DNA of 64,000 nucleotides from Chloroflexota bacterium (GCA_020850535.1 JADZEM010000174.1:1-64000); one strand, 5' to 3'. Shown: positions 18,301 to 35,412, counted from the stretch's first letter. The notes: generated by a model from the letters alone, not told the origin. A program made the numbers and translations.

Positions 18301-18600
18301 ATCTTCGGTCCCGTCCTCTCGGTGATCGAGTTCACCGACGTGGATGAGGCGGTCCACATCGCGAACGGCACCTGCTACGGCCTGGGCGCGTCGGTCTGGA
18401 CCCGCGACATCCAGCGCGCGATTCAGCTCGCGAAGAGCATTGAGTCCGGCCAGGTCTACGTCAACCAGTACGGCTCGGCCGGCGTCATCGGTGCGCCGTT
18501 CGGCGGCTACAAGAACAGCGGCTTCGGGCGGACGAACTGCGCCGACACGATCCTGGAGTACACCCAGATCAAGGCGGTCGTGTTCAACGCCGGCCAGTAG
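18292..18600 (+). pseudogene. Duplicated 3' end of an aldehyde dehydrogenase gene
   Basis: Bases 18292-18600 are about 96% identical (11 differences in the 300 bases from 18301) to 23992-24300, exactly 5,700 bases away. Both end at the same GGCCAGTAG stop. It encodes EEIFGPVLSVIEFTDVDEAVHIANGTCYGLG through the C-terminus, without the catalytic Cys or Glu. Fused in frame to the binding-protein fragment, it forms a chimeric ORF. Identity begins at CAGGAGGAG, which also fits the expected IQEE of the binding protein, so the joint lies in a short shared sequence. Confidence 0.85.
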
Positions 18601-19334: not shown

Positions 19335-20849
19335 CTACGAGGGCAGGGCCACCACCACCGACTTGACCTCGGTGTACAGCTCCAGCGCGTAGTGCCCCAT
19401 CTCACGGCCCCAGCCAGACTCCTTGTAGCCGCCGAATGGCAGCGCGGCGTCGAAGACGTGGTAGGTGTTGATCCAGACCGTGCCGGCCTTGAGTTCGGCC
19501 GCCAGCGCGTGGGCCTTCGCCACGTCCTTCGTCCAGATGCCGGCCGCCAGGCCGTAGGTCGTGTCGTTCGCGATGCCGGCCAGCTCGTTGATGTCGTCGA
19601 ACGGCAGCGCCACCACGACCGGCCCGAAGATCTCCTCCTGGACGATCTTCATCTCCTGCTTGGCGTCCACAAGCACCGTCGGTTGGAAGAAGTAGCCGCG
19701 CTCGCCGAAGCGGCTGCCGCCGACCAGCGAGCGAGCGCCCTGCTCCGCGCCAGACTGGAGGTAGCCGGTCACGCGCCGCAGCTGCTCGTCGGAGATCAGC
19801 GGCCCCATCTGGGTGTCGGGGTCGAAGGCGTTGCCGAGCTTGATGCCCTCGGCGGCGTCCGCCACGCCCTGGGCGACCTCGTCAAAGACCTTCCGCTGCA
19901 CGTACAGGCGGGAGCCGGCGTTGCAGCACTGGCCGTGGTTGAAGAAGATCGCGTTGGACGCCCCGGCGATGGCGGCCGGCACGTCGGCGTCGTCGAACAC
20001 GATGTTGGGTGACTTGCCGCCCAGCTCCAACGAGACCTTCTTGAGGTTGCCGGCCGCCGCCTGGACGACGATCTTGCCGACCTCGCCCGAACCGGTAAAG
20101 GCGACCTTGTCCACGTCCGGATGCGCCGCCAGGGCCGCGCCGGCCGTCTCGCCAAAGCCGGTGACGATATTCACGACGCCGTTCGGGATGCCAGCCTCGG
20201 CGATCAGCTCGCCGAGGCGCAGGGCCGTCAGCGGTGTCTGCTCGGCCGGCTTCAGCACCACCGTGCAGCCCGTCGCCAGGGCCGGGCCAAGCTTCCAGGC
20301 CGCCATCAGCAGCGGGAAGTTCCAGGGGATGATCTGCGCGACCACGCCAATCGGCTCGTGGCGGGTGTAGGCGAAGAACCTGTGGCCCGGCAGCGGGATG
20401 TTCGAGATCGGGATGGTGTGGCCCTCGATCTTCGTGGCCCAGCCGGCCATGTAGCGGAGCAGATCGACGGCCAGCGGCACGTCGGCGGCCCGGGCCACCG
20501 CCACCGGCTTGCCGTTGTCGAGCGCTTCGAGCTGGGCGAACTCCTCAGCGTTCTGCTCGAGCAGGTCGGCCAGCTTCCAGATCATCCGGCCCCGCTCGGA
20601 CGGCGAGACGCTCCTGCGCCACGGGCCGACCTCGAAGGCCCGGCGAGCAGCCGCGACGGCCTTCTCGACGTCCGCCTTGTCGCCCTCAGCCACCTGGGCA
20701 ATGACCTCTTCGGTGGCTGGATCGAACACGTCGAAGACCTTGCCAGACGCCGCCTGCACCCACTGGCCGTCGATGAGCATCGGGCGCGGGCTGCCGACGA
20801 ACTCGGCGACGTTCGCGCCCAACCCCGGCCTGCTCTCTGTCAGTACCAC
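19335..20849 (-). CDS. NAD(P)-dependent aldehyde dehydrogenase (class 1/2, betaine- or phenylacetaldehyde-type)
   Basis: A 504-residue cytoplasmic enzyme oxidising an aldehyde to the acid. Active-site residues are all present: Asn177 in IIPWNFP, Glu275 in LELGGKSP and Cys309 in NHGQCCNAGSR, the double-Cys form typical of ALDH1/2-like enzymes. The cofactor loop FTGSGEVGK (251-259) is intact. The GTG at 20849 follows GAGAAGGGG by seven bases; the longer frame adds 20 residues without a ribosome site. The putative promoter is TTGAAT-17-CATAGT, whose -35 lies inside a 52-bp palindrome. The aldehyde substrate is unknown. Confidence 0.9.
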   Translation of the reverse strand: MVLTESRPGLGANVAEFVGSPRPMLIDGQWVQAASGKVFDVFDPATEEVIAQVAEGDKADVEKAVAAARRAFEVGPWRRSVSPSERGRMIWKLADLLEQNAEEFAQLEALDNGKPVAVARAADVPLAVDLLRYMAGWATKIEGHTIPISNIPLPGHRFFAYTRHEPIGVVAQIIPWNFPLLMAAWKLGPALATGCTVVLKPAEQTPLTALRLGELIAEAGIPNGVVNIVTGFGETAGAALAAHPDVDKVAFTGSGEVGKIVVQAAAGNLKKVSLELGGKSPNIVFDDADVPAAIAGASNAIFFNHGQCCNAGSRLYVQRKVFDEVAQGVADAAEGIKLGNAFDPDTQMGPLISDEQLRRVTGYLQSGAEQGARSLVGGSRFGERGYFFQPTVLVDAKQEMKIVQEEIFGPVVVALPFDDINELAGIANDTTYGLAAGIWTKDVAKAHALAAELKAGTVWINTYHVFDAALPFGGYKESGWGREMGHYALELYTEVKSVVVALPS

Positions 20850-20924
20850 GGTGTACCCCTTCTCACTCGCAACGTTCGGTCTGGTGTGGCGACCAGCAAG
20901 CGCGAGCACCAGCCTGCGCGACTA

Positions 20925-20953
20925 CTATGGCGCAGACCACCCTGACTATTCAA
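20925..20953 (-). promoter_or_regulatory. Putative promoter of the aldehyde dehydrogenase at 20849
   Basis: On the minus strand TTGAAT (20953-20948) and CATAGT (20930-20925) are separated by 17 bases. The -35 element lies within the left arm of the 52-bp palindrome, so a protein bound there would block RNA polymerase. Confidence 0.5.
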
Positions 20954-20988
20954 ACACGGAATATTCCGTGTTTGAATAGTCAGGGTGG
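20937..20988. promoter_or_regulatory. 52-bp perfect palindrome with two overlapping 19-bp operator dyads
   Basis: The 26-base arms are perfectly complementary with no loop, centred between 20962 and 20963 on GGAATATTCC. Each outer arm holds CTATTCAAA/TTTGAATAG. Two 19-bp sites overlap: CTATTCAAA-C-ACGGAATAT (20946-20964) and its mirror ATATTCCGT-G-TTTGAATAG (20961-20979). These match the dyads at 22761, 25122, 31807, 31835 and 31972. There is no T tract, arguing for an operator over a terminator. Confidence 0.75.
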
Positions 20989-21055: not shown

Positions 21056-22549
21056 CTACAGCTGGATCACCACCGACTTCACCTCGGTGTACAGCTCCAG
21101 CGCGTTGTGGCCCATCTCCCGGCCCCAGCCGGACTGCTTGAAGCCGCCGAACGGCAGGGCCGGATCGCCGACGTTGTAGCAGTTGACCCAGACCGTCCCC
21201 GCGCGCAGCTTCGCGGCCACCCGGTGGGCCTTGCGGACGTCCGTGGTCCAGATGCCGGCGGCCAGGCCGTAGGTCGTGTCGTTCGCCCGCTGCGCCACCT
21301 CTTCGATGTCGTCGAACGGCATCGCCGAGATGACGGGGCCGAAGATCTCCTCCTGAGCGATCCGCATGCCGTCCTGCACGTCGGCGAAGACCGTCGGCGG
21401 GACGAAGTAGCCGTTGGCCAGCTCGCCCTCGGTCAGGCGCGCCCCGCCGACCGTCGCCCTGGCCCCCTCATCCGCCCCAAGCTGCAGGTAGCTAGTGACC
21501 CGCTCGATCTGCTGCTGCGAGACCAGCGGCCCGATCTGCACATTCGGATCGAGGCCGTTGCCGACCTTCAGCTCTGAGGCGAAGTTCGACAGGCGCTCCA
21601 CGAACTCGTCGTGCACCTTGCGCTCGACGAAGAGGCGTGTTCCAGCGCTGCAGATCTGTCCGGAGTTGGCGAAGACCGCCATCGCCGCCCCGGGGACGGC
21701 TGCGTCAAGGTCGGCGTCGGCGAACACGACGTCTGGCGACTTGCCGCCCAGCTCCAGGGACACCCGCTTCAGGTTCAGCGCCGACGAGCGGATGATCTCC
21801 TGGCCCGTCACGTGTGACCCGGTGAAGGCGACCTTGTCGACGTCGAGGTGCCGCGCCAGGGCCGCGCCGGCCGTCTCGCCGTAGCCGGGCACCACGTTGA
21901 CGACGCCATCGGGAACCCCAGCCTCCTGGCACAGCTCGGCGAAGCGGAGCGGGGTCAGCGGCGCCTCTTCGGCCGGCTTGAGGATCACGGTGCAGCCCGT
22001 CGCGATGGCCGGCCCGACCTTCCAGATACAGGCGCCGAGCGGCCCGTTCCAGGGGATGATCGCGCCGACGACGCCGACCGGATCCTTGAGGGTGAACGAG
22101 ACGTACTCGCCGGGCAGCGAGTTCTCGATGGTCTCGCCGTGGATGGCCGTCGCCTGTCCAGCGTACCAGCGGAGCATCCCGAGCGCCCGCCGCCTGGTGG
22201 ACATGGTGCGGCTGACCGGCGCGCCCATGTCGAGCGTGTCGAGGGTGGCAAGCTCCTCGAAGTGCTCCTCCACCAGATCGGCCAGTTTGAGCAGGATCGC
22301 CTGCCGCTCGTACGGCTTGACCTTGCTCCACGGCCCCTCGAACGCCGCCCGCGCCGCCCTGACCGCCCGGTCGATGTCGACGGCGTCACCCTCGGCGACC
22401 GTCGCGAGCACCTCCCCCGTGGCCGGATTGACGCTCTCGAAGGTCTTGCCCGAGGCCGCGTCGACCCACTGACCGCCGATCAGCATCTTCTTCGGCGTGC
22501 CGTCCAGGAACGGATGCCGCGTGTTGGCCCATGCGCCTGCTAGCGCCAT
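21056..22549 (-). CDS. NAD(P)-dependent aldehyde dehydrogenase
   Basis: A 497-residue enzyme of the same family as its neighbour, with Asn168 in IIPWNGP, Glu266 in SLELGGKSP, Cys300 in NSGQICSAGTRL and the cofactor loop AFTGSHVTGQ. It is full length, beginning MALAGAWANT with the oligomerisation strand MLIGGQWVDAASGK (22-35). It is transcribed away from the dehydrogenase at 22816; the 266-base gap contains a TATAAT and a 19-bp dyad. Together with 19335 it forms a same-strand pair separated by the palindrome. The substrate cannot be told apart from related aldehydes. Confidence 0.9.
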   Translation of the reverse strand: MALAGAWANTRHPFLDGTPKKMLIGGQWVDAASGKTFESVNPATGEVLATVAEGDAVDIDRAVRAARAAFEGPWSKVKPYERQAILLKLADLVEEHFEELATLDTLDMGAPVSRTMSTRRRALGMLRWYAGQATAIHGETIENSLPGEYVSFTLKDPVGVVGAIIPWNGPLGACIWKVGPAIATGCTVILKPAEEAPLTPLRFAELCQEAGVPDGVVNVVPGYGETAGAALARHLDVDKVAFTGSHVTGQEIIRSSALNLKRVSLELGGKSPDVVFADADLDAAVPGAAMAVFANSGQICSAGTRLFVERKVHDEFVERLSNFASELKVGNGLDPNVQIGPLVSQQQIERVTSYLQLGADEGARATVGGARLTEGELANGYFVPPTVFADVQDGMRIAQEEIFGPVISAMPFDDIEEVAQRANDTTYGLAAGIWTTDVRKAHRVAAKLRAGTVWVNCYNVGDPALPFGGFKQSGWGREMGHNALELYTEVKSVVIQL

Positions 22550-22760: not shown

Positions 22761-22779
22761 CTATTCAAACTTTGAATAG
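22761..22779 (+). promoter_or_regulatory. Operator dyad CTATTCAAA-C-TTTGAATAG
   Basis: This perfect 19-bp dyad has nine-base arms around one central base. It sits 37 bases before the GTG of the aldehyde dehydrogenase at 22816, next to a TTGATA (22753-22758) that could be its -35. It is the cleanest member of the operator family described for this region. Confidence 0.75.
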
Positions 22780-22815: not shown

Positions 22816-24300
22816 GTGGCAGTGAGCGCTCCGCCTCAGACTCGGGCCCCTGGCATCCTCGAACAGGTTCCTGACGGTGTCCAGTTCATCGGGGGCGTCT
22901 GGACCCCCGCGAAGCACGGCGAGACCATCGCCGTCATCAACCCCGCCTCGGGCGAGCATCTGCGAAGCGTGCCGCGCGGCGGCGCCGACGACGTTGCCGA
23001 GGCCGTGTCGGCGGCGGCGGCGGCGTTCCCGAAGTGGCGCGACCTGAGCGCCACCCAGCGCGGCAACCTGATCCGCCGCTGGGGCGACATCTGCAACCAG
23101 CACGCCGAGGACATCGCGATCCTCGAGTGCCTGGAGGTCGGCAAGCCGTTCAAGGGGCCGGCCAACGTTGGCGACCGCGCCATCTACTTTGCCGGGCTGG
23201 CCGACAAGCTGACCGGCGACACGCTGCCCTCGGCCAACCCGAACGTGCTCGGCATCACCCTGCGCGAGCCGTACGGCGTCTGCGGCAGCATCGTCCCCTG
23301 GAACTTCCCGCCCCACCTGATGATGAGCGACGTGGCCCCGGCCATCGCGGCTGGGAATACCATCGTGGTCAAGCCACCCGAGGACGCGCCGATCACCTGC
23401 CTCTACCTGGCGAAGCTGGCGCAGGAAGCTGGCATCCCGGACGGCGTGATCAACGTCGTCACCGGCTACGGCTCCGAGGCCGGCTCGGCCCTGCCGCTGC
23501 ATCCGCTGGTCCGCCACATGAGCTTCACCGGCTCGCCGGAGACCGGCTCGAAGGTGATGACGGCCTGCGCCCAGCGGCTGATCCCGCTGCACCTGGAGCT
23601 GGGCGGGAAGTCGCCGCAGGTCGTGCTGCGCGATGCCGACCTCAACGCGGCGGTCCCACACATCGTCCGCAACTTCACCAGCAACGCCGGTCAGGTCTGC
23701 GTGGCCGGGACGCGGCTAGTGGTCGATCAGTCGGTGCGCTCGCAGATCGTCGAGGCGATCGCGGCCGAGATGGAGCGGGTGCGGGTTGGCCACTGGTACG
23801 AGGACGTGGACATGGGGCCGCTGATCTCCAAGAAGTAGGAGAATCGCGTGCTCGGCTACATGGACGTCGCGCAGCAGGAAGGCGTCCAGGTGGTCGTCGG
23901 CGGCAACAAGCTCGGCGGGGCCAAGTTCGACAACGGCTTCTTCGTCGAGCCGACGCTCTTCGACAACGTCAAGCCGGACATGCGGGTCGCCCAGGAGGAG
24001 ATCTTCGGTCCCGTCCTCTCGGTGATCGAGTTCACCGACGTGGACGAGGCGGTCCACATCGCGAACGGCACCCGCTACGGCCTGGGCGCGTCGGTCTGGA
24101 CCCGCGACATCCAGCGCGCGATTCAGCTCGCGAAGAGCATCGAGTCCGGCCAGGTCTACGTCAACCAGTACGGCTCGGCCGGCGTCATCGGTGCGCCGTT
24201 CGGCGGCTACAAGAACAGCGGTTTCGGCCGGACTGGCGGCGTCGACACGATCCTGGAGTACACCCAGATCAAGGCGGTGGTGTTCAACGCCGGCCAGTAG
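22816..24300 (+). pseudogene. Aldehyde dehydrogenase interrupted by an in-frame amber codon
   Basis: A full-length aldehyde dehydrogenase frame of 494 codons is broken at codon 341 by TAG (23836-23838). Translation is GPLISKK-stop-ENRVLGYMDVAQQEG; relatives have Gln there (SKKQxxRVLGY), so one CAG-to-TAG change explains it. Both parts are in the same frame with no indel. Glu261 (LELGGKSP) and Cys295 (NAGQVCVAGTR) are in the first part; the C-terminal EEIFGPVLSVIEF and oligomerisation segment are in the second. The start is GTG with GGGAGGA upstream, 37 bases after an operator dyad. The downstream piece may be re-initiated at GTG/ATG near 23848 but would be inactive alone. Recent inactivation, suppression or a sequence error are all possible. 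Confidence 0.85.
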
Positions 24301-24398: not shown

Positions 24399-25064
24399 CT
24401 ACCGGGCGCGCATCGCCTCGAGGATCTGCTGCACCAACGGGTTGTGGCGGCGCTCGAAGCCGATGGTCGTCTGATCCATGTGGCCCGGACGCACCACCGT
24501 ATCCTCAGGCAATGGCATCAGCCGGCTCATGATGCTGATCATGATCCGCTCGAAGCTGCCATCGGGCGAGTCGAACTTGCCGACCGACCCCTGAAACAGG
24601 GTGTCGCCGCTGAACAGCACGCCGTCGGTGTAGAAGCAGACGCTGCCCGGCGTGTGCCCGGGCGTGTGGATCACCTTCAGGTCGACGCCCGCCACCCCGA
24701 CCGTGTCGTCGTGTGCCAGGAAGTCGTCGGGCTCGGGTGACGGCCGCTCGTGCCGCCCGAACATCCGCGGCGCCGAGGCCGGCATCCGCCGCGCGATCTC
24801 CAGGTCGTCGGCGTGGAGCAGGTACGGCGCGCCGGTCTCCTCCTGGAGCGCACGCACGGCCATGATGTGGTCGAGGTGCCCGTGCGTGCAGACGATCTTC
24901 TTGATGGAGACCTTCATCTCCCGCGCGAGCGCCTGAACCTCGCCGACCTCGTCGCCGGGGTCGATGCAGATCGCCTCGCCGGTGCGTCTCGACCCGACGA
25001 TGTAGCAGTTGGCCTGAATCAGTCCGACCACCGTGTGGCGGATCATCAGCTCGGTGGCGTCCAT
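24399..25064 (-). CDS. MBL-fold hydrolase (glyoxalase II-like)
   Basis: A 221-residue metallo-beta-lactamase-fold enzyme of the hydroxyacylglutathione-hydrolase-like group. It shows CTHGHLDHIMAV with THGHLDH (60-66), VIHTPGHTPGSVCFY, FSGDTLFQGSVGKFD and a C-terminal RPGHMDQTTIGFER. Such enzymes hydrolyse thioesters or related metabolites and often accompany aldehyde detoxification. ATG at 25064 has GGGGAGGG upstream. It is divergent from the acyl-CoA-dehydrogenase-like gene at 25190, with an operator dyad centred between them. Confidence 0.88.
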   Translation of the reverse strand: MDATELMIRHTVVGLIQANCYIVGSRRTGEAICIDPGDEVGEVQALAREMKVSIKKIVCTHGHLDHIMAVRALQEETGAPYLLHADDLEIARRMPASAPRMFGRHERPSPEPDDFLAHDDTVGVAGVDLKVIHTPGHTPGSVCFYTDGVLFSGDTLFQGSVGKFDSPDGSFERIMISIMSRLMPLPEDTVVRPGHMDQTTIGFERRHNPLVQQILEAMRAR

Positions 25065-25121: not shown

Positions 25122-25140
25122 GTATTCAATCGATGAATAC
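25122..25140. promoter_or_regulatory. Operator dyad GTATTCAAT-C-GATGAATAC
   Basis: The same 19-bp architecture as the site at 22761 (arms GTATTCA/TGAATAC, single central C). It lies 58 bases upstream of the glyoxalase-II-like gene and 50 bases upstream of the acyl-CoA-dehydrogenase-like gene, which are divergent, so one site could control both. Confidence 0.65.
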
Positions 25141-25189: not shown

Positions 25190-26389
25190 ATGACTGCCCA
25201 CCAGACGACTCCCACTCCTCTGGCCGAGTCGGCTTCGCTCGCTGAGCGGCGCGCGGCCCTGCTGGCGGCCGTTCAGGCCCTTGCCGCCGAGTTCGCCCAG
25301 GATCGCCAGCAGCGCCAGCGCCGGCGCGAGCTTGACCCGGCCGATGTCGACCGCCTTCGCGCGGCCGCCTACACGCTGACCGCCGTGCCAGTCGAGCAGG
25401 GCGGCCTCTGGGACACGCTGGCGGGATCGGCCCGCCCGGTGGCCGCCGTCCTGCGGGCGCTGGCGCACGGCGACTCGTCCCTGGCCCTGGTCTCGGCGAT
25501 GCACCCCTCCATTCTCTCGCCCTGGCTCGCCTCGACCAGCATCGCGGACGGCGACGAGGAATGGCAGGCGCAGCGAAGCTGGATCTTCCAGACCGTCAAG
25601 GATGGCGACCTCTGGGGCACTATCACCTCGGAGCCGGGCAGCGGCGGCGATCCTGGGAAGACCAAAGCCGTCGCCGTCCGCGACGATGGCCCGACGGGCT
25701 GGCGGCTCACGGGCGTCAAGCATTTCGGCAGCGGCATGGGCATCATGTCGTACATGGTGACGACGGCCATTCCGGAGGGCGAGACGGCTCCGGCCACCTT
25801 CTTCCTGAGGATGAAGGGCGTCCCCTGGGACGGCTCGCAGGGCGCGACCCTGACAGCACCCTGGGACGGCCACGGGATGGTCGCCACCCAGAGCCACGGC
25901 ATGCGGTACGACAGCTTTCCGGCCACGCGGCAGGCCTGGAAGGGCACGCGCGATGCCATCGCCTCGCCGGCCGGGGCCTTCGACAACTTCGTGTTCACGG
26001 CGGTGATCGTCGGGATCGTCGAGGTCGCCTTCGAGACGGCCCGCGCGTCGCTGGCGAAGAAGGCGGGCGCCCTGCGCGCCTACGAGCGGGTGGAATGGTC
26101 GCGCGCGGAGCTGGACGAGTGGACGATCCTCCAGGCGTTCGAGGGGATGACCCGCGCGATGGAGACGAAGGCCCGCCCGAACCGCGACATCCTGAAAGGC
26201 AAGACGGTCATTGCCGAGCTGGCAGAGTCGGCGCTGGGCCGGCTGTCGAAAGTGATCGGCGGCGGGACGTTCGCGCGGTACTCGCCCTTCGGCTACTGGA
26301 ACGAGGATGTCCGCGCGCTCGGGTTCCTGCGTCCGCCCTGGGGGTTCGCCTTCGACCGCCTGTTCGACGGCTCGCTGCCGACGGGATAG
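25190..26389 (+). CDS. Acyl-CoA dehydrogenase-like flavoprotein
   Basis: A 399-residue protein of the acyl-CoA dehydrogenase fold. The N-terminal helical part has LDPADVDRLRAAAYTLTAVPVEQGGLWD; the middle beta-domain contains LWGTITSEPGSGGDPGKTKAVAV, like the TEPGSGSD flavin motif, and GWRLTGVKHFGSGMG. The C-terminal four-helix bundle is shorter in recognisable motifs and the catalytic Glu position is not obvious, so it could be a monooxygenase-type member (DszC/HpaB-like fold) rather than a true dehydrogenase. ATG at 25190 follows GAGGAG; an upstream ATG at 25133 would place the operator dyad inside the message. Confidence 0.75.
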   Translation: MTAHQTTPTPLAESASLAERRAALLAAVQALAAEFAQDRQQRQRRRELDPADVDRLRAAAYTLTAVPVEQGGLWDTLAGSARPVAAVLRALAHGDSSLALVSAMHPSILSPWLASTSIADGDEEWQAQRSWIFQTVKDGDLWGTITSEPGSGGDPGKTKAVAVRDDGPTGWRLTGVKHFGSGMGIMSYMVTTAIPEGETAPATFFLRMKGVPWDGSQGATLTAPWDGHGMVATQSHGMRYDSFPATRQAWKGTRDAIASPAGAFDNFVFTAVIVGIVEVAFETARASLAKKAGALRAYERVEWSRAELDEWTILQAFEGMTRAMETKARPNRDILKGKTVIAELAESALGRLSKVIGGGTFARYSPFGYWNEDVRALGFLRPPWGFAFDRLFDGSLPTG

Positions 26390-26459: not shown

Positions 26460-27647
26460 TCAGCGCGTCTGCAGGAAGTGCAGCAGCATCGCACGGTCCT
26501 CGCGCGACAGTTTCGTGTACCGGTCCGAGGCCAACGCCGCCTCGCCACGGTGCGCCCCGATGGCCGCCTCGATGCTTCGCGCGCGGCCGTCGTGCAGAAA
26601 GCGCTCCCGCTCGCGGAGGCCCCAGAGCGGCGTGGTGCGCCAGTCTCGACCGCCCGCCTGCCCCTGCACGATGCCGTCGTTGAGCGGCGCGCCCATGTCG
26701 TGCAGCAGCAGGTCGGAGTAGAGGCGGACCTCGCCGTTCGGCGTCGAGAGCGACGGCGTGTGGCAGCTCGCGCAGCCGACCTGCGCGAACAACGCCTCGC
26801 CGGTGGGGTGCGCCGGCGAGGTCGGCGCGGGCAGCGATGCGACGAATGCGGTCAAGGCCGCCACGTCCGCACCGTCCATCTCGGGTGACCCCGCCCCGTT
26901 GCCCGTGCTGGCGGAACAGGTATCGATCTGACCGTTCGGGGGCAGGAGATCGACGGAGGCGAGCGGGCTGGTGATGCCATGCTCGTTGCGGAGGGCGTCC
27001 GCCGAGAACTGCTCCAGCGTGGCCGTGTCCGCCTTCCAACCGAACCGCCCGACGCGCTGCCGGCCGCCGGCATCTATCACCAGATGCGGCCGGCCGTGGG
27101 TACCATCCTCGCGCGCAATGGCTCCGGCCAGGATGACCTCGTCCGGGATCTGGTCGATCAGCCCGAGGCCGAACAGGCCCGGCGTGTTGCGCTCGACGGC
27201 AAGCGCGGCCTCGGCCGGGACGCCGGGCGTCAGCGAGCAGGATGCGCCCAGCTCCGAGATCGCGTGGGCCCGGGCAATCGGACCGCCGCGCTCCAGCAGC
27301 GGATCGAACGTGCCGCCCGTCTGCCGCCCGACGCGGGTGACCACCGCCAGGCCGCCGCGCCCCATCCCGCCCGTGCGCGGGGTCAGGTGGCAGCCGGCAC
27401 ACGACGTCTCGTTGTAGAGGGGGCCAAGCCCCTGCTCGGGCGTCAGCTCGGCGGTGAAGAGTATGCGCCCCCGCGCGACGACCTCCGGGGCCGGTGCAGG
27501 CGCCGGCGGAGCGTCCTGGGCGGCGGCCGGCGCTGCCGACAGCCACGCAACAGCGGCCAGGACGCCGATCACCATGATGGTCGCCAGCGCACGCCCACGG
27601 CGTGCCCGGGCAAGCGCCCACTGCGGCCCCCACGCCGCTTGCGTCAT
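26460..27647 (-). CDS. Di-heme c-type cytochrome (DHOR/DUF1111, putative thiol oxidase/peroxidase)
   Basis: A 395-residue exported protein. The N-terminal signal helix (ALATIMVIGVLAAVAWLSAAPAAAQ) is followed by an Ala/Pro linker, then two haem-binding sites: ETSCAGCHLTPRTGGMG and QVGCASCHTPSLSTPNG. The region PGLFGLGLIDQIPDEVILA and GRFGWKADTATLEQFSADALRNEHGI are hallmarks of the di-heme oxidoreductase family, and the C-terminus TTPLWGLRERERFLHDGRARSIEAAI is the MauG-like end. It acts outside the membrane. It is the last gene of a five-gene minus-strand set behind the flavin monooxygenase. The exact redox partner is unknown. Confidence 0.85.
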   Translation of the reverse strand: MTQAAWGPQWALARARRGRALATIMVIGVLAAVAWLSAAPAAAQDAPPAPAPAPEVVARGRILFTAELTPEQGLGPLYNETSCAGCHLTPRTGGMGRGGLAVVTRVGRQTGGTFDPLLERGGPIARAHAISELGASCSLTPGVPAEAALAVERNTPGLFGLGLIDQIPDEVILAGAIAREDGTHGRPHLVIDAGGRQRVGRFGWKADTATLEQFSADALRNEHGITSPLASVDLLPPNGQIDTCSASTGNGAGSPEMDGADVAALTAFVASLPAPTSPAHPTGEALFAQVGCASCHTPSLSTPNGEVRLYSDLLLHDMGAPLNDGIVQGQAGGRDWRTTPLWGLRERERFLHDGRARSIEAAIGAHRGEAALASDRYTKLSREDRAMLLHFLQTR

Positions 27648-27697
27648 CGTGCATCCGCCGAGATCACTGGACCGACCTCCTGCGAGGTTCGAGGCCG

Positions 27698-28753
27698 TCA
27701 GCCGGCCCCGAATGCTCCTGCATGATGCTCCACGCGCGCACTCGCTCGCACGGCAGCATCCGTGACCTCCGTACCAGGGAAGCGCGGCATCACCTCGGCT
27801 GCGAAGATCTCCAGGGACTGCCGCAACAGCGGCCCCGGCAGATACCCAAAGAAGGCCGGCAGCAGGTTCAGGTACTGCATGCCCAGCCGCGCGTGCAGGC
27901 CTGCGATCCGCGCAGCGACCGTCTCCGGACCGCCGACAATGGCGACCTCGGCCATGAACCGCTCTGGCTCCAGCTCTTCCTCGGCGATGACCCGCCGTGA
28001 CCGCGCTATCCCGACCTGGCGGAGCTTCGCCGTCAGATCGAGGATCGTCGGCCAGACCTCGCGGCGGGCCTGCTCGTCGCTGGCGCTGACGTAGACGAAG
28101 CGCCCCACCGGCACGGTTGCGATGTCGCCGCCGGCCTCCGCGAAGAGGATCATGGCGCGTTCGACCGTCGTCAGCGACTGGATGCCGTGCTGAATCAGCC
28201 GGTGGCCGGCCGTCGCCGCCCACCGCACTGACTCATCTGTGTACGCGCCGACGTAGATCGGCGGGGTCGGCTGCTGGACCGGCTTCGGCTCGACGGGGAA
28301 CACCTCGCCATGCAGCTCGACGGTGTCCTCGGTCCAGCAGCGCCGCATGAAGTCGAGCGTGTCCCGAAACGCCTGGGTGTTGTCCGCCAGATCGACCCCG
28401 AACGCCTCGAAGTAGCGCCCGTTGTTGCCCCGCGAGATGCCCACGTCGATACGTCCGCCGGACAGCACGTCCAGCGATGCCAGCTCCTCGGCCAGCCGCA
28501 ACGGATGGTGCAGCGGCGCGAGCAGCACCGAGAACCCGATGCGGATCCGTGAGGTGGCCGCCGAGAGCGCCCCGGCCAGGATCAATGGTGAGAGGCAGAG
28601 GCGGCCCCGTCCCGCCTCCGGCCGATTGAAGTGCTCCTCGTTGATCCAGAGCCCGGCGTACCCGAGCGCGTCGGCGAGGCGGGCAAGATCGAGGAGATCG
28701 CGCGGATCGCCAGACTCCAGCCCGCCGCCGCACCCAGACAGTCCAAACTGCAT
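27698..28753 (-). CDS. Luciferase-like (LLM) flavin monooxygenase
   Basis: A 351-residue TIM-barrel flavin-dependent oxidoreductase of the bacterial luciferase family: LADALGYAGLWINEEHFN, IRIGFSVLLAPLHHPLRLAEELASLDVLSGGRIDVGISRGN and PPIYVGAYTDESVRWAATAGHRLI. The HHPLRLAEE element is typical of FMN-using members. ATG at 28753 has AGGTG upstream. It sits between the ABC binding protein (58 bases) and the di-heme cytochrome (50 bases) in the same orientation, so it is probably co-transcribed and may oxidise the compound imported by the ABC system. Confidence 0.87.
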   Translation of the reverse strand: MQFGLSGCGGGLESGDPRDLLDLARLADALGYAGLWINEEHFNRPEAGRGRLCLSPLILAGALSAATSRIRIGFSVLLAPLHHPLRLAEELASLDVLSGGRIDVGISRGNNGRYFEAFGVDLADNTQAFRDTLDFMRRCWTEDTVELHGEVFPVEPKPVQQPTPPIYVGAYTDESVRWAATAGHRLIQHGIQSLTTVERAMILFAEAGGDIATVPVGRFVYVSASDEQARREVWPTILDLTAKLRQVGIARSRRVIAEEELEPERFMAEVAIVGGPETVAARIAGLHARLGMQYLNLLPAFFGYLPGPLLRQSLEIFAAEVMPRFPGTEVTDAAVRASARVEHHAGAFGAG

Positions 28754-28811
28754 CAGCGCACCTGATCCGTGTCGGCCGCCCGGCCGGTCTCTCGTGGAGT
28801 CGCCGCCGCGC

Positions 28812-29888
28812 TCACAACTGACCGCTCAGGATGTCCGTCACCTGGGCATCGGTCAGCTCGGTCCTGAAGATGTCGCGGTAGAACGCCTTGACCTCTTTCG
28901 GCAGATCGACGCCGGGCAGGCGGTCGCCGTGGATCTTGCTGGCAGCCCACAGCACCGTCATCGGCTGCTCGGTGGTGCGGTTCCCCCAGGTGTGGGCCGC
29001 GATGGGAGCGGTGTACACGCGCCGATCCTTCACCGCCTGGACCGGTGCGAGGCGGGCATCGTTGAACACGCCCTGCGCGTCGGCCGGCGAGTTGACGAGG
29101 ATCACCTGCGGATCCCAGCGCAGCAACTGCTCGATGGTGAACGTCAGGCTCTCCGCCTTCATGTCCTCACGCGTCACGCTGCGTCCGCCGGCCGTCTCGA
29201 TCCACCACTCGGCGATCGCGTGGGGCTGGGTCAGCGTGGCCGGCGTGAAGTAGAGGACGCGCGGGCGCTGGTCGGCAGGGATGGCCGACGTCTCGCGGTG
29301 GACCCGCCCGACAACCTCGTCAAAGGTCTTGACGTACGCCTCGGCCCGCGCCCGCTCGTCAAAGATCTGCCCCATCAGGGTCATCACCTGCTTGACGTCC
29401 TCGGGGTCTCGCCACTGGAGCAGCACGACGCGCAGGCCAGCCTTCTCAAGGGGCTCCACCCGCGGCGGGTCCATGGTGAACACCACGTCAGGCTCGGCCT
29501 TCAGGATCTCTTCGACGTTCGGATCGTTGTTCGAGGCCTGCATCATCGGCTTCTCGTTGATGCCCGGCGCGAAGAGGCTGTGGTAGCGATAGCGCGGCGT
29601 CCGCGCGAACTGGGGCAGGCCGTTGACGATGGTGTCGCCCTTGCCCACGGCGAAGATGAAGCTGTTGATCACCGGCACCGAGCCGACGGTCACGACCCGC
29701 TTGATCTGGGCCGGCAGGCTGACCGACCGGTTGCCCATGTCGGTGACGGTGCGCTTCGACGCGCCGGGCGCTGCCTGCGGGGCGATCGACGAGCAGCCGG
29801 CGACGAGCACGGCGATCAGCGACACCAGCAGCGTGAGCGCGGCGCGGGCCGGCCGTCGGGCCGCGAACGGACGGTGGATCGAGAACAT
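28812..29888 (-). CDS. ABC substrate-binding lipoprotein (iron-siderophore/corrinoid type, BtuF/FepB family)
   Basis: A 358-residue lipoprotein: signal helix LTLLVSLIAVLVAGC with lipobox VAGC, then a periplasmic-binding fold of the helical-backbone (TroA/BtuF) type: RVVTVGSVPVINSFIFAVGKGDTIV, NVEEILKAEPDVVFT, AGLRVVLLQWRDPEDVKQVMTLMGQIF, DPQVILVNSPAD. ATG at 29888 has AGGAGGAG upstream; the longer frame overlaps the ATPase gene. It captures the ligand outside the membrane for the FecCD permease and ATPase just upstream. The ligand (ferric chelate, cobalamin or another metallophore) cannot be read. Confidence 0.88.
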   Translation of the reverse strand: MFSIHRPFAARRPARAALTLLVSLIAVLVAGCSSIAPQAAPGASKRTVTDMGNRSVSLPAQIKRVVTVGSVPVINSFIFAVGKGDTIVNGLPQFARTPRYRYHSLFAPGINEKPMMQASNNDPNVEEILKAEPDVVFTMDPPRVEPLEKAGLRVVLLQWRDPEDVKQVMTLMGQIFDERARAEAYVKTFDEVVGRVHRETSAIPADQRPRVLYFTPATLTQPHAIAEWWIETAGGRSVTREDMKAESLTFTIEQLLRWDPQVILVNSPADAQGVFNDARLAPVQAVKDRRVYTAPIAAHTWGNRTTEQPMTVLWAASKIHGDRLPGVDLPKEVKAFYRDIFRTELTDAQVTDILSGQL

Positions 29889-29941
29889 CGGCAGCTCCTC
29901 CTGCGAGCACCGATGCCCGGTGCCTCGCGCTGGTGCGCTGG

Positions 29942-30739
29942 TCATGCCAGCATCGGTACGCAGACCTTGACGGTGGCCGGCTCGTGCTCCTCGATGGCCG
30001 CCGCCACCACGCGCACATCCACGCCGTAGAGCGCGCTGAGGCTGGCGCCCGAGATGACCTCGTCGGGTGGACCCAGCGCGGCGATGCGGCCCTCCTTCAT
30101 CAGGGCTACCTGATGGGCGCACTCGAAGGCGTGACTCGGAACGTGCGAGGTCATCACGACGGTGTGGCCAGCCGCCGCCAACCCCTTGACCAGCCGAAGC
30201 ATGCGGACCTGATTGCCGTAGTCCAGGCTGGCCGTTGGCTCGTCCATGACCAGGATCGAGGCTTCCTGCGCCAGCGCCCTGGCGATCAGCGCCAACTGGC
30301 GCTCGCCGCCGCTGACCTGGGTACAGGGCCGGGTCGCAAGGTGCCCGATCCCGACGCGCTCCAGCGCAGCCTGGGCGACCTGCCGGTCGTGGGCGGTAGG
30401 GGTCTGCATGAAGCCGAGGTGCGGGCTGCGCCCCATCACCACGATGTCCAGCAGGCTGAACGGGAAGACCGTGCTGCTGGCCTGCGGGACGTAGGCCACA
30501 TGCCGGGCCAGCTCCTTCGCCGTCATGCTGGCGGTGTCACGCCCGCCGATGCTGATGGCGCCGTTGGACGGTTTCGCCAGCCGCACCAGGCAGCGCAACA
30601 GCGTGGTCTTGCCGGTCCCGTTTGGGCCGAGCAGGCAGAGCACCTCGCCCGCGCCCACCCCGAACCCGACGCCGTGCAGCGTCGGCGGCCGGCCGGGATA
30701 GGCGAAGGACAGCCCGTCCACCTGGAGCAGCACACTCAC
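29942..30739 (-). CDS. ABC transporter ATP-binding protein (FecE/BtuD type)
   Basis: The 265-residue ATPase drives the importer. Walker A is GPNGTGKTT (38-46), the Q-loop is in AYVPQASSTVFPFSLLDIVVMGR, the signature is VSGGERQLALIARALAQ and Walker B is ILVMDEPTASLD. The VVMGRSPHLGFM segment is typical of iron-chelate/cobalamin ATPases. It is read directly after the permease with a 10-base gap and before the binding protein. Confidence 0.93.
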   Translation of the reverse strand: MSVLLQVDGLSFAYPGRPPTLHGVGFGVGAGEVLCLLGPNGTGKTTLLRCLVRLAKPSNGAISIGGRDTASMTAKELARHVAYVPQASSTVFPFSLLDIVVMGRSPHLGFMQTPTAHDRQVAQAALERVGIGHLATRPCTQVSGGERQLALIARALAQEASILVMDEPTASLDYGNQVRMLRLVKGLAAAGHTVVMTSHVPSHAFECAHQVALMKEGRIAALGPPDEVISGASLSALYGVDVRVVAAAIEEHEPATVKVCVPMLA

Positions 30740-30749
30740 GGCCGCCCGC

Positions 30750-31769
30750 CTACACCTTCGCCGTCCGGGCGAGCAGCACGATGAAGAACGGCGCGCCGAT
30801 CAGGGCCGTCAGGATGCCGAGCGGGATCTCCAGCGGCCCGGCGCTTCGCCCGATGTTGTCCACCAGCAGCAAGAAGCCGCCGCCCATCAGGATCGAGGCC
30901 GGCAGCAGCACCGGGAAGTTCGGGCCGACCACCATCCTTGCCATGTGCGGCACCAGCAGCCCGACCCAGCCGATGATGCCGCCGATGCTCACGACGGTGG
31001 CCGTCATCAGCGTCGCGCTGACGATGACGATGGCCCACACGCGCGAACGGTCGATCCCGAGCGCCGTCGCCTCGTCACTGCCGAGCGCCAGCACCTGCAC
31101 CTGCCAGCGCACGGCGTACAACAGGCCGCAGGAGAGCGCAACCGGCCAGACCGCGAACAGCACGTCCCGCATGCTGACCCGGGACAACCCGCCCATCAGC
31201 CAGAAGGTGATGGTGGGCAGCGTGTCGACCGGGTTCGCAAGGTACTGCAGGATCGAGATCAACGCCTGGAACAGCGCCGAGATCACCAGCCCGCCGAGCA
31301 CCAGCACGACGGTGGAGCCAGCGCCGACCCAGCGTCCGATCAGCAACGCCAGACCCGTTGCGACGATGGCGAACACGAAGGCCGATCCCTGCACGGCCAG
31401 CCAGGGCAGCTGCAGAACGATCGCCAGCGCCGCCCCGAAGCCGGCCCCGGCCGAGACGCCGAGGATCGCTGGCGAGACCAGCGGGTTGGTGAAGACGTTC
31501 TGATACGCCGCGCCGGAGGCCGCCAGGGCCGCGCCAATCAGCAGGGCGGCCAGGATGCGGGGCAGCCTGACCTGCAGCACGACCGTCTCCATCGTGTCGG
31601 TCCAGGTCCGCGGCAGCGATACCAGCTGCGAGCCGAGAATGCCGAGCACGGTATCGACCGGGATCGGGTAACGGCCGAGCGGGAACGACACGAGGAAGAG
31701 CGCGACGACGCCGACCAGGAGCGCGGCGAGGCGCAGACCGGGGGCGGCGGCAGAGGACGAGGACTGCAT
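30750..31769 (-). CDS. FecCD-family ABC permease
   Basis: The 339-residue permease has about ten membrane helices and the FecCD marks LPRILAALLIGAALAASGAAYQNVFTNPLVSPAILGVSAGAGFGAALAI and GFIGLL-like IGGIIGWVGLLVPHMARMVVG (given here in parts; helices 3-4 and 8). It forms the channel for the ATPase and lipoprotein that follow. It is the first gene of the five-gene minus-strand operon; its upstream region carries two operator dyads and a TATACT -10 box. Confidence 0.93.
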   Translation of the reverse strand: MQSSSSAAAPGLRLAALLVGVVALFLVSFPLGRYPIPVDTVLGILGSQLVSLPRTWTDTMETVVLQVRLPRILAALLIGAALAASGAAYQNVFTNPLVSPAILGVSAGAGFGAALAIVLQLPWLAVQGSAFVFAIVATGLALLIGRWVGAGSTVVLVLGGLVISALFQALISILQYLANPVDTLPTITFWLMGGLSRVSMRDVLFAVWPVALSCGLLYAVRWQVQVLALGSDEATALGIDRSRVWAIVIVSATLMTATVVSIGGIIGWVGLLVPHMARMVVGPNFPVLLPASILMGGGFLLLVDNIGRSAGPLEIPLGILTALIGAPFFIVLLARTAKV

Positions 31770-31806: not shown

Positions 31807-31825
31807 CTATCCAGAGATTGAATAG
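31807..31825 (-). promoter_or_regulatory. Operator dyad (degenerate) CTATCCAGA-G-ATTGAATAG
   Basis: A 19-bp site with one near-consensus arm (ATTGAATAG), 38 bases upstream of the FecCD start and just downstream of the predicted transcription start from TATACT (minus strand of 31834-31839). Confidence 0.5.
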
Positions 31826-31834
31826 ATGGGCCCA

Positions 31835-31853
31835 GTATACATATATTGAATAG
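31835..31853 (-). promoter_or_regulatory. Operator dyad overlapping the FecCD -10 box
   Basis: GTATACATA-T-ATTGAATAG has one good arm and one diverged arm, with its start 28 bases from the neighbouring site. On the minus strand the diverged arm includes TATACT, a probable -10. A protein on this site would occlude the promoter of the ABC/monooxygenase operon. Confidence 0.5.
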
Positions 31854-31971: not shown

Positions 31972-31990
31972 CTATTCGAAGAATGAGTAG
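31972..31990 (+). promoter_or_regulatory. Operator dyad CTATTCGAA-G-AATGAGTAG
   Basis: A 19-bp member of the same family, 112 bases upstream of the molybdenum hydroxylase start. The outer CTATTC/GAGTAG positions are kept with two inner substitutions. Confidence 0.5.
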
Positions 31991-32101
31991 TCAGGCCGGG
32001 CTGGGCGGCGGCTTCTGCGACCGCTTCTCCCAGCCCTGCGCTGTTGCCGGGGCAGCGCCGCTGCCGCACTGCCTGCACCCGGCGTGAGGGAGGACGCATC
32101 G

Positions 32102-34431
32102 ATGGCGACCGTGATGAAGACCAGTCGAGACGTGCGGGGCGTTGGCTTCTCGGTGCCGCGCTACGACGCGCCAGACAAAGTCGTCGGGAAGACGCGGTAC
32201 GTGAACGACGTGATCCTGCCCGGCATGCTGCACGCTCGCCTGCTCCGCAGCCCACACGCCCATGCCCGCATCACGCGCATCGACGTCAGCAAGGCGAAGG
32301 CGCTCAAGGGAGTACGGGCGGTCCTGACGGCGGCGGACATTCCGACGCTCCATCACGGCGCAAAGACGCGCGGCCACGCCATCATGGCCATTGACCGGGC
32401 GATCTTTGCCGGCCAGCCGGTGGCAGCCGTCGCCGCCGACGAGCTGGCGATCGCGGACGAGGCGCTCGACCTGATCGAGGTCGAGTACGAGGTGCTGCCG
32501 GCGGCCGTTGACCCGATCAAGTCGATGGACTGGGATGCCCCGCGCGTCGCCGACGAGGGCACCGAAGCCGACACCTCCGAAGCCCTGGCCCACTCTGGCA
32601 TCGCTGCCACCGCCACCGAGCAGGTGAAGACCGCCCCGAACGTCACCCAGACCTCGAAGCTCGGGCGGGGGATCTCGCGGCGGCGTTCGCCGAGTCCGAC
32701 GTGATCCTGGAGAAGACGTACCACGTTCCGATGGTCCACCAGGGGTACATCGAGACCCATGGCACCGTCGCGCACGTCGATCAGACCGGCCGCATCACGG
32801 TGTACGCCAGCACCCAGGGCTCCTTCAACACGCGGGCCGAGATCGCGGATGTGCTGCAGATCCCCGAGGAGATCGTCAAGGTCATCCCGATGGAGTGCGG
32901 CGGTGGCTTCGGCGCGAAGATCCGCGCGCTGACCGAGCCGATCACCGTCCTGCTCTCGCAGGTGACGCGGCGGCCGGTCAAGTACATCATGACGCGCCGC
33001 GAAGAGCTCGAGGCGGGCATGCCGGCCCCGAGCGTGACCATCAAGCTCCGGACCGGCGTCAAGCAGGACGGCACCCCGATGGCGCTGGAGGGCGAGACGG
33101 TCATCGAGGCCGGCGCGTACTCGGGGGCCGTGCTGACGATGAGTGGCGTATTCCTGGCGTCCGTCTACCAGTGGCCGACCTTCCAGGTGACCGGCTACGA
33201 GGTGCTGACGCACAAGCCGAGCATCGCGGCGTACCGCGCCCCGATGGCCCCGCAGACCGCCTATGTCATCGACTCGCACATGGACCAGATCGCGCGGCAG
33301 CTCGGGCTGGATCCGGGCCAGTACAAGCTGAAGCACCTCCAGCGCGGCGGCGACCTGATGGCGCACGGCCAGAAGTGGGCGGTCAACGGCGCCTGGGAGT
33401 GCCTCGAGCGCATGCTCGAGCACCCGTTCTGGCAGACTCGAGACGCCTGGCGTGAGAGCGGCGGCAAGAACGGCGCTGGCTACCGGGGGACCGGCGTGGC
33501 CGTTGGCGGGTGGGTGCCGGGCGCGCAGCCGTCCAGCGCCACCATGCGGCTCGATACGGACGGCACGCTGACCGTCTTCACCGGCTCGGTGGACATTGCC
33601 GGCACCAATCAGGGCCTCGCGATGATGGCTGCCGAGACCTACGGCGTCGACATCAGCAAGGTCAAGATCGTCACCGGCGACACCGACAGCTCGCCGTGGA
33701 CTGGCCTGAGCGCCGGCTCGAAGACGACCTACTCGGTCGGCAGCGCCGTGGTGGCAGCGGCGAAGGATGCCCGCACCAGGACGCTGAGTGTGGCCGCCGA
33801 CGAGCTGGAGGCGTCTCCGGACGACCTCGACATCGACGGCGACGCGGTGGTGGTCCAGGGCGTGCCGGGCAAGTCGATGACCCTCTCGGCCATCGCGAAG
33901 AAGGCGACGGCGCTGGCCTCGTCGCGCGGCCCGATCATCGGGCTGGGCGCCGCGGGCGTCTCGGAGCTGGCGCCGGCCTTCGCCGCCGAGCTGGCCCGCA
34001 TCGAGATCGACCCGGACACCGGCCAGATCACGCTGCATGACTTCGTGGTCGTGCAGGACGTCGGCAAGCTGATCAACCCGCTCGGCGCGGAGGGCCAGAT
34101 GCAGGGTGGCGCCGTGCAGAGCCTCGGCTTCGCGCTGACCGAAGGTCTGATGTACAGCGACAGCGGCCGGCTGATGAACCCGAGCCTGCTGGACTATCGC
34201 AAGCTCACGGCGGCCGACGTGCCGGACATCGAGACGATTGTGATCGAGGTGCCGGCCCCATCTGGTCCGATGGGGGCGCGCGGCGTCGGCGAGCCGCCAA
34301 TCGTGCCCGCGCTCGCGGCCATCGCCAACGCGGTCCACGACGCCACGGGTGTCCGCCTGACCACGCTGCCGCTCACGCCAGAGCGAGTGGTGCTGGGGTT
34401 GGAAGCCGCGCACCCGAACGGCTCGGCGTAG
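32102..34431 (+). pseudogene. Xanthine dehydrogenase/aldehyde oxidase molybdenum subunit, frameshifted
   Basis: Two frames together encode a normal-length (about 776 residues) molybdopterin-binding subunit of the xanthine oxidase family. The first (32102-32704) ends NVTQTSKLGRGISRRRS; the homologous sequence continues in the next frame as DLAAAFAESDVILEKTYHVPMVHQGY. One base is missing in the G run at 32667-32671. The second part has GGGFGAKI, AYRAPMAPQTAY, the cofactor motifs and the catalytic Glu in ARGVGEPP. The start is ATG 32102 with GAGGGAGGA upstream. No FAD or iron-sulphur subunit gene is nearby. A sequencing error in the homopolymer would restore the gene, so inactivation is unproven. 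Confidence 0.85.
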
Positions 34432-34441
34432 CGTCGCATCT

Positions 34442-34476
34442 CGGCCGCCACGGCTGATGTCGTGCCGTGGCGGCCG
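34442..34476 (+). terminator. 13-bp stem-loop after the molybdenum hydroxylase
   Basis: CGGCCGCCACGGC (34442-34454) pairs perfectly with GCCGTGGCGGCCG (34464-34476) around a nine-base loop, starting 11 bases after the stop. No T tract follows. Confidence 0.65.
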
Positions 34477-34528
34477 TCAGTCCCTCAGCGGGCTTCGCGC
34501 CACATCATGCCGCCGTGCGGGTCTGGCC

Positions 34529-34534
34529 TATACT
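34529..34534 (+). promoter_or_regulatory. Putative -10 box TATACT
   Basis: TATACTCGCC lies 30 bases before the GTG of the following flavin/F420 oxidoreductase, in the same relative place as the TATAATCGGC boxes at 2891 and 40487. Confidence 0.45.
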
Positions 34535-34563
34535 CGCCCGACACCAGTGTGGGGAGTGGCAAG

Positions 34564-35412
34564 GTGGCAGCACCACAGGTCCGCGTGGGCATCAAAGTCG
34601 CCCAGATGACCGGCCTCTACGACGACGCCAAGGAAGCATGGCTGGAGGCCGACCGGCTCGGCTTCGATACCGGCTGGCTCCACGACCATCTGCTCAACCA
34701 GAACGACCTGTCCGCGCCCGAGGAGGAGGGCTGGTCGATCCTGGCGGCGCTCCTGGCGCTCAGCAAGAGCATCCGGGGCGGGCTGCTGGTCACCTCGAAC
34801 ACGTTCCGCCACCCGAGCCTGCTCGCCAAGATCGCCACGACCATCGACCGCATCTCCGGCGGGCGGGTCGAGGTCGGGCTGGGGGCCGGCTGGATGGAGG
34901 CCGAACACGAGCAGTACGGCATCACCCTGCCGCCCCTGAAGGACCGCGTCCGCGCGCTCGACGAGGCCTGCCAGATCCTGATCTCGCTCTGGACCCAGGA
35001 GCGGACCACCTTCAACGGCCAGTACTACACCCTCAAAGAGGCGTACCACGAGCCGAAGGCGATCCAGAATCCGCATCCGCCGCTGGTGATCGGCGCGAAG
35101 GGCGAGAAGGTGACCCTCCGCACGACGGCCAGGTACGCCGCCGAGTGGAACTATTCCGGCGGCACCCCGGAGGAGTTCGCGCACAAGAGCGCCGTCCTGG
35201 ACGAGCACTGCCGGGCCATCGGGCGTGACCCGAAGACCATCGAGCGCTCAACCCAGTTCCGAGCCGGCGCCTCGGCCGCCGAGTTGCTCGACCTCAGCCG
35301 CCAGTACATCGGGCGGGGCGCCACGCACCTGATCTACACCTGCCCGCAGCCGTACAGCGCCAAGGGCGCACGCTGGATCTGGAACGAGGTGGTGATGCCA
35401 CTGCGCGGCTAA
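34564..35412 (+). CDS. LLM-class F420-dependent oxidoreductase
   Basis: A 282-residue luciferase-fold protein: EADRLGFDTGWLHDHLLNQNDL, GGLLVTSNTFRHPSLLAKIATTIDRISGGRVEVGLGAGWMEAEHEQYGI (in parts) and HPPLVIGAKGEKVTLRTTARYAAEWN. The RHPSLLAK and GGRVEVGLGAGW elements are typical of F420-dependent members. GTG at 34564 has GGGGAG eight bases upstream and is preferred over the ATG at 34462, which precedes the -10 box. It is a single gene between two stem-loops. The substrate is unknown. Confidence 0.85.
   Translation: MAAPQVRVGIKVAQMTGLYDDAKEAWLEADRLGFDTGWLHDHLLNQNDLSAPEEEGWSILAALLALSKSIRGGLLVTSNTFRHPSLLAKIATTIDRISGGRVEVGLGAGWMEAEHEQYGITLPPLKDRVRALDEACQILISLWTQERTTFNGQYYTLKEAYHEPKAIQNPHPPLVIGAKGEKVTLRTTARYAAEWNYSGGTPEEFAHKSAVLDEHCRAIGRDPKTIERSTQFRAGASAAELLDLSRQYIGRGATHLIYTCPQPYSAKGARWIWNEVVMPLRG

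Follow-up and report, generated by a model that had tools for sequence, protein, structure and literature searches.

Four genes that recur together on methanotroph plasmids, encoding the permease, ATPase, and binding lipoprotein of an ATP-binding cassette (ABC) importer and a luciferase-like monooxygenase (LLM), were found in a 64,000-nucleotide stretch of DNA from a Chloroflexota bacterium (GCA_020850535.1 JADZEM010000174.1:1-64000), the whole of which is referred to below as the window. They lie on the minus strand at positions 26460-31769, together with a fifth gene for a diheme cytochrome. The four-gene importer-LLM set is conserved; the five-gene system named in an earlier note on this DNA is not. 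The permease is most similar, among solved structures, to MolB, and the operon has a 19-bp dyad operator in common with neighboring genes for oxidizing enzymes. The explanation that we favor, tentatively and as something possible that stops short of probable, is that the set is a laterally acquired importer of the molybdenum/tungsten type (or of a metal chelate) that has been tied into a regulon for molybdenum-dependent aldehyde oxidation.

The importer-LLM set and its relatives

All five open reading frames (ORFs) are open in the window sequence, and all five encoded proteins exceed the curated Pfam cutoffs. From the promoter onward, they are a MolB-like FecCD permease (30750-31769; Pfam FecCD, 268.7 bits), an ABC ATPase with a GTG start (29942-30739; ABC_tran, 109.5 bits), a Peripla_BP_2-type binding lipoprotein starting at ATG 29888 (28812-29888; 55.9 bits; lipobox LVAGCSS), the LLM flavin monooxygenase (27698-28753; Bac_luciferase, 192.3 bits against a cutoff of 27.9), and the DHOR-type cytochrome (26460-27647; DHOR, 122.8 bits against a cutoff of 22). 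Intergenic gaps from the permease to the cytochrome are 10, 53, 58, and 50 bp, in keeping with the row of genes with gaps of 10 to 58 bases first described by the earlier note. No terminator-like site was found inside the operon, and we infer that the five genes form a single transcript.

Of 72,556 plasmid records searched, three contained the LLM subfamily (Methylocystis sp. MJC1, Methylosinus sp. C49, and Ca. Mycobacterium methanotrophicum) and three the binding-protein subfamily (MJC1, C49, and Paracoccus ferrooxidans); two records held both, about 2 kb apart. The MJC1 and C49 plasmids each carry, side by side, genes for the LLM, the three importer components (ATPase, permease, and binding protein), and a TonB receptor. 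These clusters are annotated, and we found no study of them. They have the four protein subfamilies in common with the window but differ from it in that the LLM gene is convergent with the importer, a TonB receptor is present, DHOR and the operator dyad were not found, and, in MJC1, a pyrroloquinoline quinone (PQQ) methanol dehydrogenase gene is nearby. The earlier note had joined importer and monooxygenase in one system and proposed a neighborhood search for all five genes; four of them stand together on these two plasmids, and the full five-gene set was seen in no other genome examined. By the note's own refuting condition, that the genes never occur together elsewhere, the five-gene system fails and the four-gene set holds. 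No described system with this set was known to the note, and we found no description of an LLM-FecCD set in the open-access full-text literature. The paper on methylolanthanin speaks of no monooxygenase and of no FecCD importer.

Identity to the methylotroph plasmid proteins is 52 to 55% for the permease, 46 to 50% for the ATPase, and 40 to 45% for the binding protein (28% to its nearest own-phylum relative), and the LLM is 50 to 54% identical to the LLMs of the three methanotroph plasmids; for the four-gene sets of Methylocystis and Methylosinus, the overall range is 45 to 54%. In phylogenetic trees, the permease (96/97) and binding protein (100/99) of the window fell with alphaproteobacterial plasmid proteins, apart from the sampled own-phylum relatives, a grouping that points to lateral transfer in the history of the importer. 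A close LLM was found in none of the genomes of the phylum sample.

The importer has the makeup of a type II (FecCD/BtuCD-F) system, with a FecCD permease, an ABC ATPase, and a Peripla_BP_2 protein encoded together. Against solved structures in the PDB, the best match of the permease was 2nq2 (HI1471; 224.6 bits), the MolB permease of the molybdate/tungstate importer, followed by FhuB (146.9 bits), heme permeases (144 bits), and BtuC (123.9 bits). Curated BtuC cutoffs were missed (215.5 bits of 461 and 177.3 of 334). As a control, the FecCD paralogue on contig C142 of the same genome matched HmuU first (192.8 bits) and HI1471 fourth (166.1 bits), and the binding protein of that paralogue matched siderophore proteins at 315 bits. 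A siderophore or heme importer (FhuB or HmuU) or a B12 importer was rejected on the strength of this control, and the siderophore or cobalamin setting in which the earlier note had placed the importer was not supported. BtuCD-F, FhuBCD, and HmuUV share superfamily and architecture with the window importer but score clearly below MolB; the C142 paralogue is of the heme/siderophore kind.

The binding protein gave a less uniform picture. Searched alone, it ranked 4ovk, 4pag, MolA (3psa), and 4hn9 in that order; a profile of four close relatives ranked 4ovk, 4pag, 4hn9, and MolA, followed by siderophore proteins, with BtuF far below. MolA is presumably the best match that has a published substrate, trailing 4ovk and 4pag (and, in the profile search, 4hn9). 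An AlphaFold model of the lipoprotein, made without an alignment, was poor (predicted local distance difference test score, 37.5). Because the permease is nearest HI1471 but the binding protein ranks 4ovk and 4pag above MolA, the importer is best termed MolB-like, as judged from sequence comparison, and not a molybdate importer. MolBCA (HI1470-1472) of Haemophilus influenzae, likewise a type II importer with a FecCD permease, carries molybdate, and MolA binding is specific to molybdate and tungstate (PMC4031551). The window importer differs from MolBCA in having a binding protein closer to 4ovk and 4pag and in being encoded with an LLM monooxygenase and a cytochrome.

By its Bac_luciferase domain, the LLM belongs to the luciferase-like superfamily, and it fell below the cutoffs of the F420-dependent subfamilies (best, TIGR03619, 126.6 bits of 166.9). 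Monooxygenases for ethylenediaminetetraacetate and nitrilotriacetate, also members of the LLM superfamily, act on imported chelates. The logic of chelate import followed by LLM oxidation may be common to those systems and the present set; they differ in belonging to another LLM subfamily, and no such importer is documented for them in the sources used.

We recommend defining the core of the set without the cytochrome. This protein carries a signal peptide and a pair of CxxCH motifs (CAGCH and CASCH), and its Pfam match spans the C-terminal half of the DHOR model. Its closest named relative points to Chloroflexota as the probable phylum of the window. Its nearest relatives are located elsewhere, with no such importer adjoining, and there is no DHOR gene at the MJC1 and C49 plasmid loci; for these reasons, we do not retain it as the system member that the earlier note had proposed, and it probably either joined the operon late or is carried along as a passenger. 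A second DHOR gene in the genome, on contig C81 (L079 3509-7941), stands in a row with genes for imelysin and an FTR1 permease, a neighborhood of the iron type. The window cytochrome belongs to the same family but is only distantly related to the C81 paralogue (46% over part), and, unlike that copy, it has no imelysin or FTR1 among the neighboring proteins scanned.

The dyad operator and its regulon

The operator is a 19-bp dyad, CTATTCA-N5-TGAATAG. The two dyads that the earlier note had placed upstream of the permease are real: dyad 2 (CTATTCAATCTCTGGATAG; 31807-31825, minus strand) is 37 bp before the permease, and dyad 1 (CTATTCAATATATGTATAC; 31835-31853, minus strand) has a candidate -10 element, TATACT, at its 3' end. 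The motif is far above chance, with nine matches in the window compared to 0.11 in shuffled sequence. Allowing up to two mismatches, it occurs eight times in the 7.65-Mb genome, with seven of these sites in the window and the other on contig C95; allowing one mismatch, the genome has three occurrences and the backward-read control none. From its position over promoters, the operator appears to be of the repressor type.

A further dyad precedes the divergent molybdenum hydroxylase gene (31972-31990, plus strand), one lies between the divergently oriented genes for the metallo-hydrolase and a flavin monooxygenase (25122-25140, plus strand), and a perfect dyad lies between two divergent aldehyde dehydrogenase genes (22761-22779, plus strand). 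Before aldehyde dehydrogenase 1 is a perfect palindrome of 26+26 nucleotides (20937-20988) with two overlapping dyads (20946-20964 and 20961-20979). A matrix trained solely on the three dyads adjoining the importer operon (31.8-32.0 kb) scored the four other window sites at 21.8 to 33.1, compared to 9.7 for the best background position and maxima of up to 13.3 in 20 shuffles. All four precede aldehyde dehydrogenase, metallo-hydrolase, or flavin monooxygenase genes. The connection to oxidation that the earlier note had drawn is borne out in this form, with the operon belonging to an operator-defined oxidation regulon, a link that is new information. Further genomes of the class yielded just one site with a single mismatch, in G020. 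No regulator of the dyad was found, and Rfam matched no RNA element in the window, whether a molybdenum-cofactor riboswitch or any other.

The regulon genes on the cytochrome side of the operon begin with those for an acyl-CoA-dehydrogenase-fold flavin monooxygenase (25190-26389, plus strand; PDB matches 5gj7 and 6u76, methanesulfinate monooxygenase), whose ORF opens at 25133 with an ATG led by a ribosome-binding site at about 25190, and a metallo-beta-lactamase-fold hydrolase (24399-25064, minus strand; Pfam Lactamase_B). Beyond them are aldehyde dehydrogenase 3 (22816-24300, plus strand; Pfam Aldedh on both pieces), whose reading frame is interrupted by a TAG at 23836-23838; aldehyde dehydrogenase 2 (21056-22549, minus strand; Aldedh, 609.7 bits); and the StyD-like aldehyde dehydrogenase 1 (19335-20909, minus strand; Aldedh, 607.5 bits; NF045735, 672 bits, below the cutoff of 850). 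The last two genes are in tandem, with the 52-nucleotide palindrome between them. An in-frame TAG is found likewise in a molybdenum hydroxylase paralogue on contig C143; these are either assembly errors or pseudogenes. A 300-bp aldehyde dehydrogenase 3' end is duplicated at 96% identity (18292-18591 and 23992-24291), and the upstream copy (ORF 16489-18600) continues in frame with a segment that, by eye, resembles a solute-binding protein of the SBP_bac_5 kind; either recombination or a chimeric assembly could have left this arrangement.

The operator on contig C95 precedes a third LLM, of the TIGR03560 type. Divergent from this LLM gene is one for a WtpA-like tungstate/molybdate-binding protein that lacks a signal peptide (L104 6901-7815, minus strand), toward which a promoter-like sequence over the operator, TTGACA-17-TAGATT, points. 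The WtpA-like gene was not counted as a regulon member, given the missing signal peptide and a start about 470 bp from the operator.

Molybdenum context and competing explanations

Divergent from the operon are genes for a xanthine-dehydrogenase-type molybdenum hydroxylase large subunit, in an N-terminal piece (32084-32704, plus strand; Pfam Ald_Xan_dh_C) and a molybdenum-cofactor-binding piece (32701-34431, plus strand; MoCoBD_1 and MoCoBD_2; 85% to a paralogue on contig C94). A second LLM oxidoreductase gene of the TIGR03560 type (34462-35412, plus strand; 256.6 bits, above the cutoff) follows 30 bp behind. In a same-family genome, the nearest orthologue of the hydroxylase (67%) is within about 2 kb of ModA (above the cutoff) and an HTH-PBP_like regulator. 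On the Ca. Mycobacterium methanotrophicum plasmid, the gene for the related LLM sits among moaA, moaC, moaD-like, moaE, moeA-like (Glp), and mogA/moaB genes, a cluster that includes a putative sulfate/molybdate transporter. Three distant importer relatives also have a molybdenum context: L083 (molybdenum hydroxylase and DUF364), L112 (FmdE), and L082 (molybdopterin-type domain). A DUF364 gene follows the importer in Paracoccus, and the genomic context of DUF364 includes molybdenum, tungsten, vanadium, and iron transport (PMC2954201). Elsewhere among the relatives, a binding-protein gene adjoins nitrogenase-component-like and NifH-like genes (L106 8907-13328), and a TiaS-like protein is encoded behind each of two importers (L082 6540-7292 and L105 10363-11115).

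In the explanation that we favor, a type II importer of the MolBCA branch would bring in molybdate, tungstate, or one of these metals in chelated form, and the cytoplasmic LLM flavin monooxygenase would be coupled to it, with either the imported ligand or an intermediate of the pathway as its substrate. The set would have come under the operator common to the molybdenum hydroxylase, aldehyde dehydrogenase, metallo-hydrolase, and flavin monooxygenase genes. Through this shared operator, we propose, metal supply for molybdenum-dependent aldehyde oxidation would be switched on together with the pathway itself.

Several observations weigh against this explanation. TonB receptors are encoded at both methanotroph loci, and bare molybdate needs no such receptor; their presence suggests a bulky ligand. 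The Methylocystis and Paracoccus loci adjoin PQQ methanol dehydrogenases; the one near the MJC1 set has a lanthanide-type DYD motif, and an mxa operon is near the Paracoccus locus. The binding protein is nearer to 4ovk and 4pag than to MolA. The operator was not found at the methanotroph loci: one has no match, and the other has a single three-mismatch match, at chance level. Further importer relatives (L105, L107-L111, and L113) have no recognized molybdenum gene nearby. Finally, the molybdenum hydroxylase is split by the loss of one base in a G run (32640-32704) relative to its paralogues, and a gene for its flavin adenine dinucleotide subunit is absent from the contig; the enzyme may thus be nonfunctional, or the assembly may be wrong there.

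Some of these observations would fit an importer for the metallophore of another metal (copper, iron, a lanthanide, or other), with the LLM cleaving the chelator in the cytoplasm and so freeing the metal, an alternative that we consider somewhat unlikely. It would account for the TonB receptor adjoining the importer in both methanotrophs, for an LLM that stays beside the importer in two different orientations (window and methanotrophs), for the DUF364 "heavy-metal chelation" gene behind the Paracoccus importer, and for the DYD-type PQQ dehydrogenase near the Methylocystis set. It sits less well with MolB as the nearest solved permease, and no chelator biosynthesis gene was recognized beside the operon. 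The host genome (96% complete) has no TIGR03075 match and thus shows no PQQ alcohol dehydrogenase, so that lanthanide supply to such an enzyme (XoxF) cannot be the purpose here. That the importer takes up an organic substrate, which the regulon would oxidize by means of the LLM and acyl-CoA-dehydrogenase-fold monooxygenases and then the aldehyde dehydrogenases and molybdenum hydroxylase, is distinctly unlikely. All other genes of the operator regulon do encode oxidizing or hydrolytic enzymes; however, the known cargo of FecCD-type importers consists of metal complexes, heme, and corrinoids, the permease has its affinity to MolB, and the Methylosinus importer has no aldehyde dehydrogenase or hydroxylase nearby. 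The earlier note had envisaged uptake of an organic or metal-bound compound followed by oxidation, possibly begun by an extracytoplasmic cytochrome; the importer-LLM set and the oxidation regulon agree with the first part, and the cytochrome drops out.

An operon for iron (siderophore or heme) uptake, in which the DHOR cytochrome performs extracytoplasmic iron redox chemistry, seems quite improbable. The imelysin and FTR1 iron permease genes beside the genome's other DHOR would be consistent with it, but the C142 control puts the importer outside the siderophore/heme branch, and the window cytochrome has neither neighbor and is only distant kin of the C81 copy. Hardly credible is a chance grouping of importer, LLM, and cytochrome without joint function. 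The lack of a conserved association for DHOR and of a close LLM among the phylum-sample relatives would be expected under chance, yet two subfamilies that each occur in only three plasmid records are near neighbors in two of them, and one operator is common to the operon and neighboring genes.

Possible implications for metal acquisition

If the importer and LLM are read more broadly, they may represent a recurring, laterally moving metal acquisition set of methanotroph plasmids and a Chloroflexota-like bacterium, in which a FecCD importer is paired with an LLM that, once the chelate has reached the cytoplasm, opens it by oxidation, although we regard this reading as rather doubtful. If it is true, the LLM of the set would free metal in a way for which no counterpart among metallophores has been described. 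Many members of the large LLM superfamily have, to our knowledge, no known substrate; a conserved importer partner narrows the search for the substrate of this LLM to the cargo of the importer. The operator regulon provides a ready list of genes for joint testing. Should the pair handle a metal chelate, it would constitute a new route for the release of scarce metal in methane- and methanol-oxidizing bacteria.

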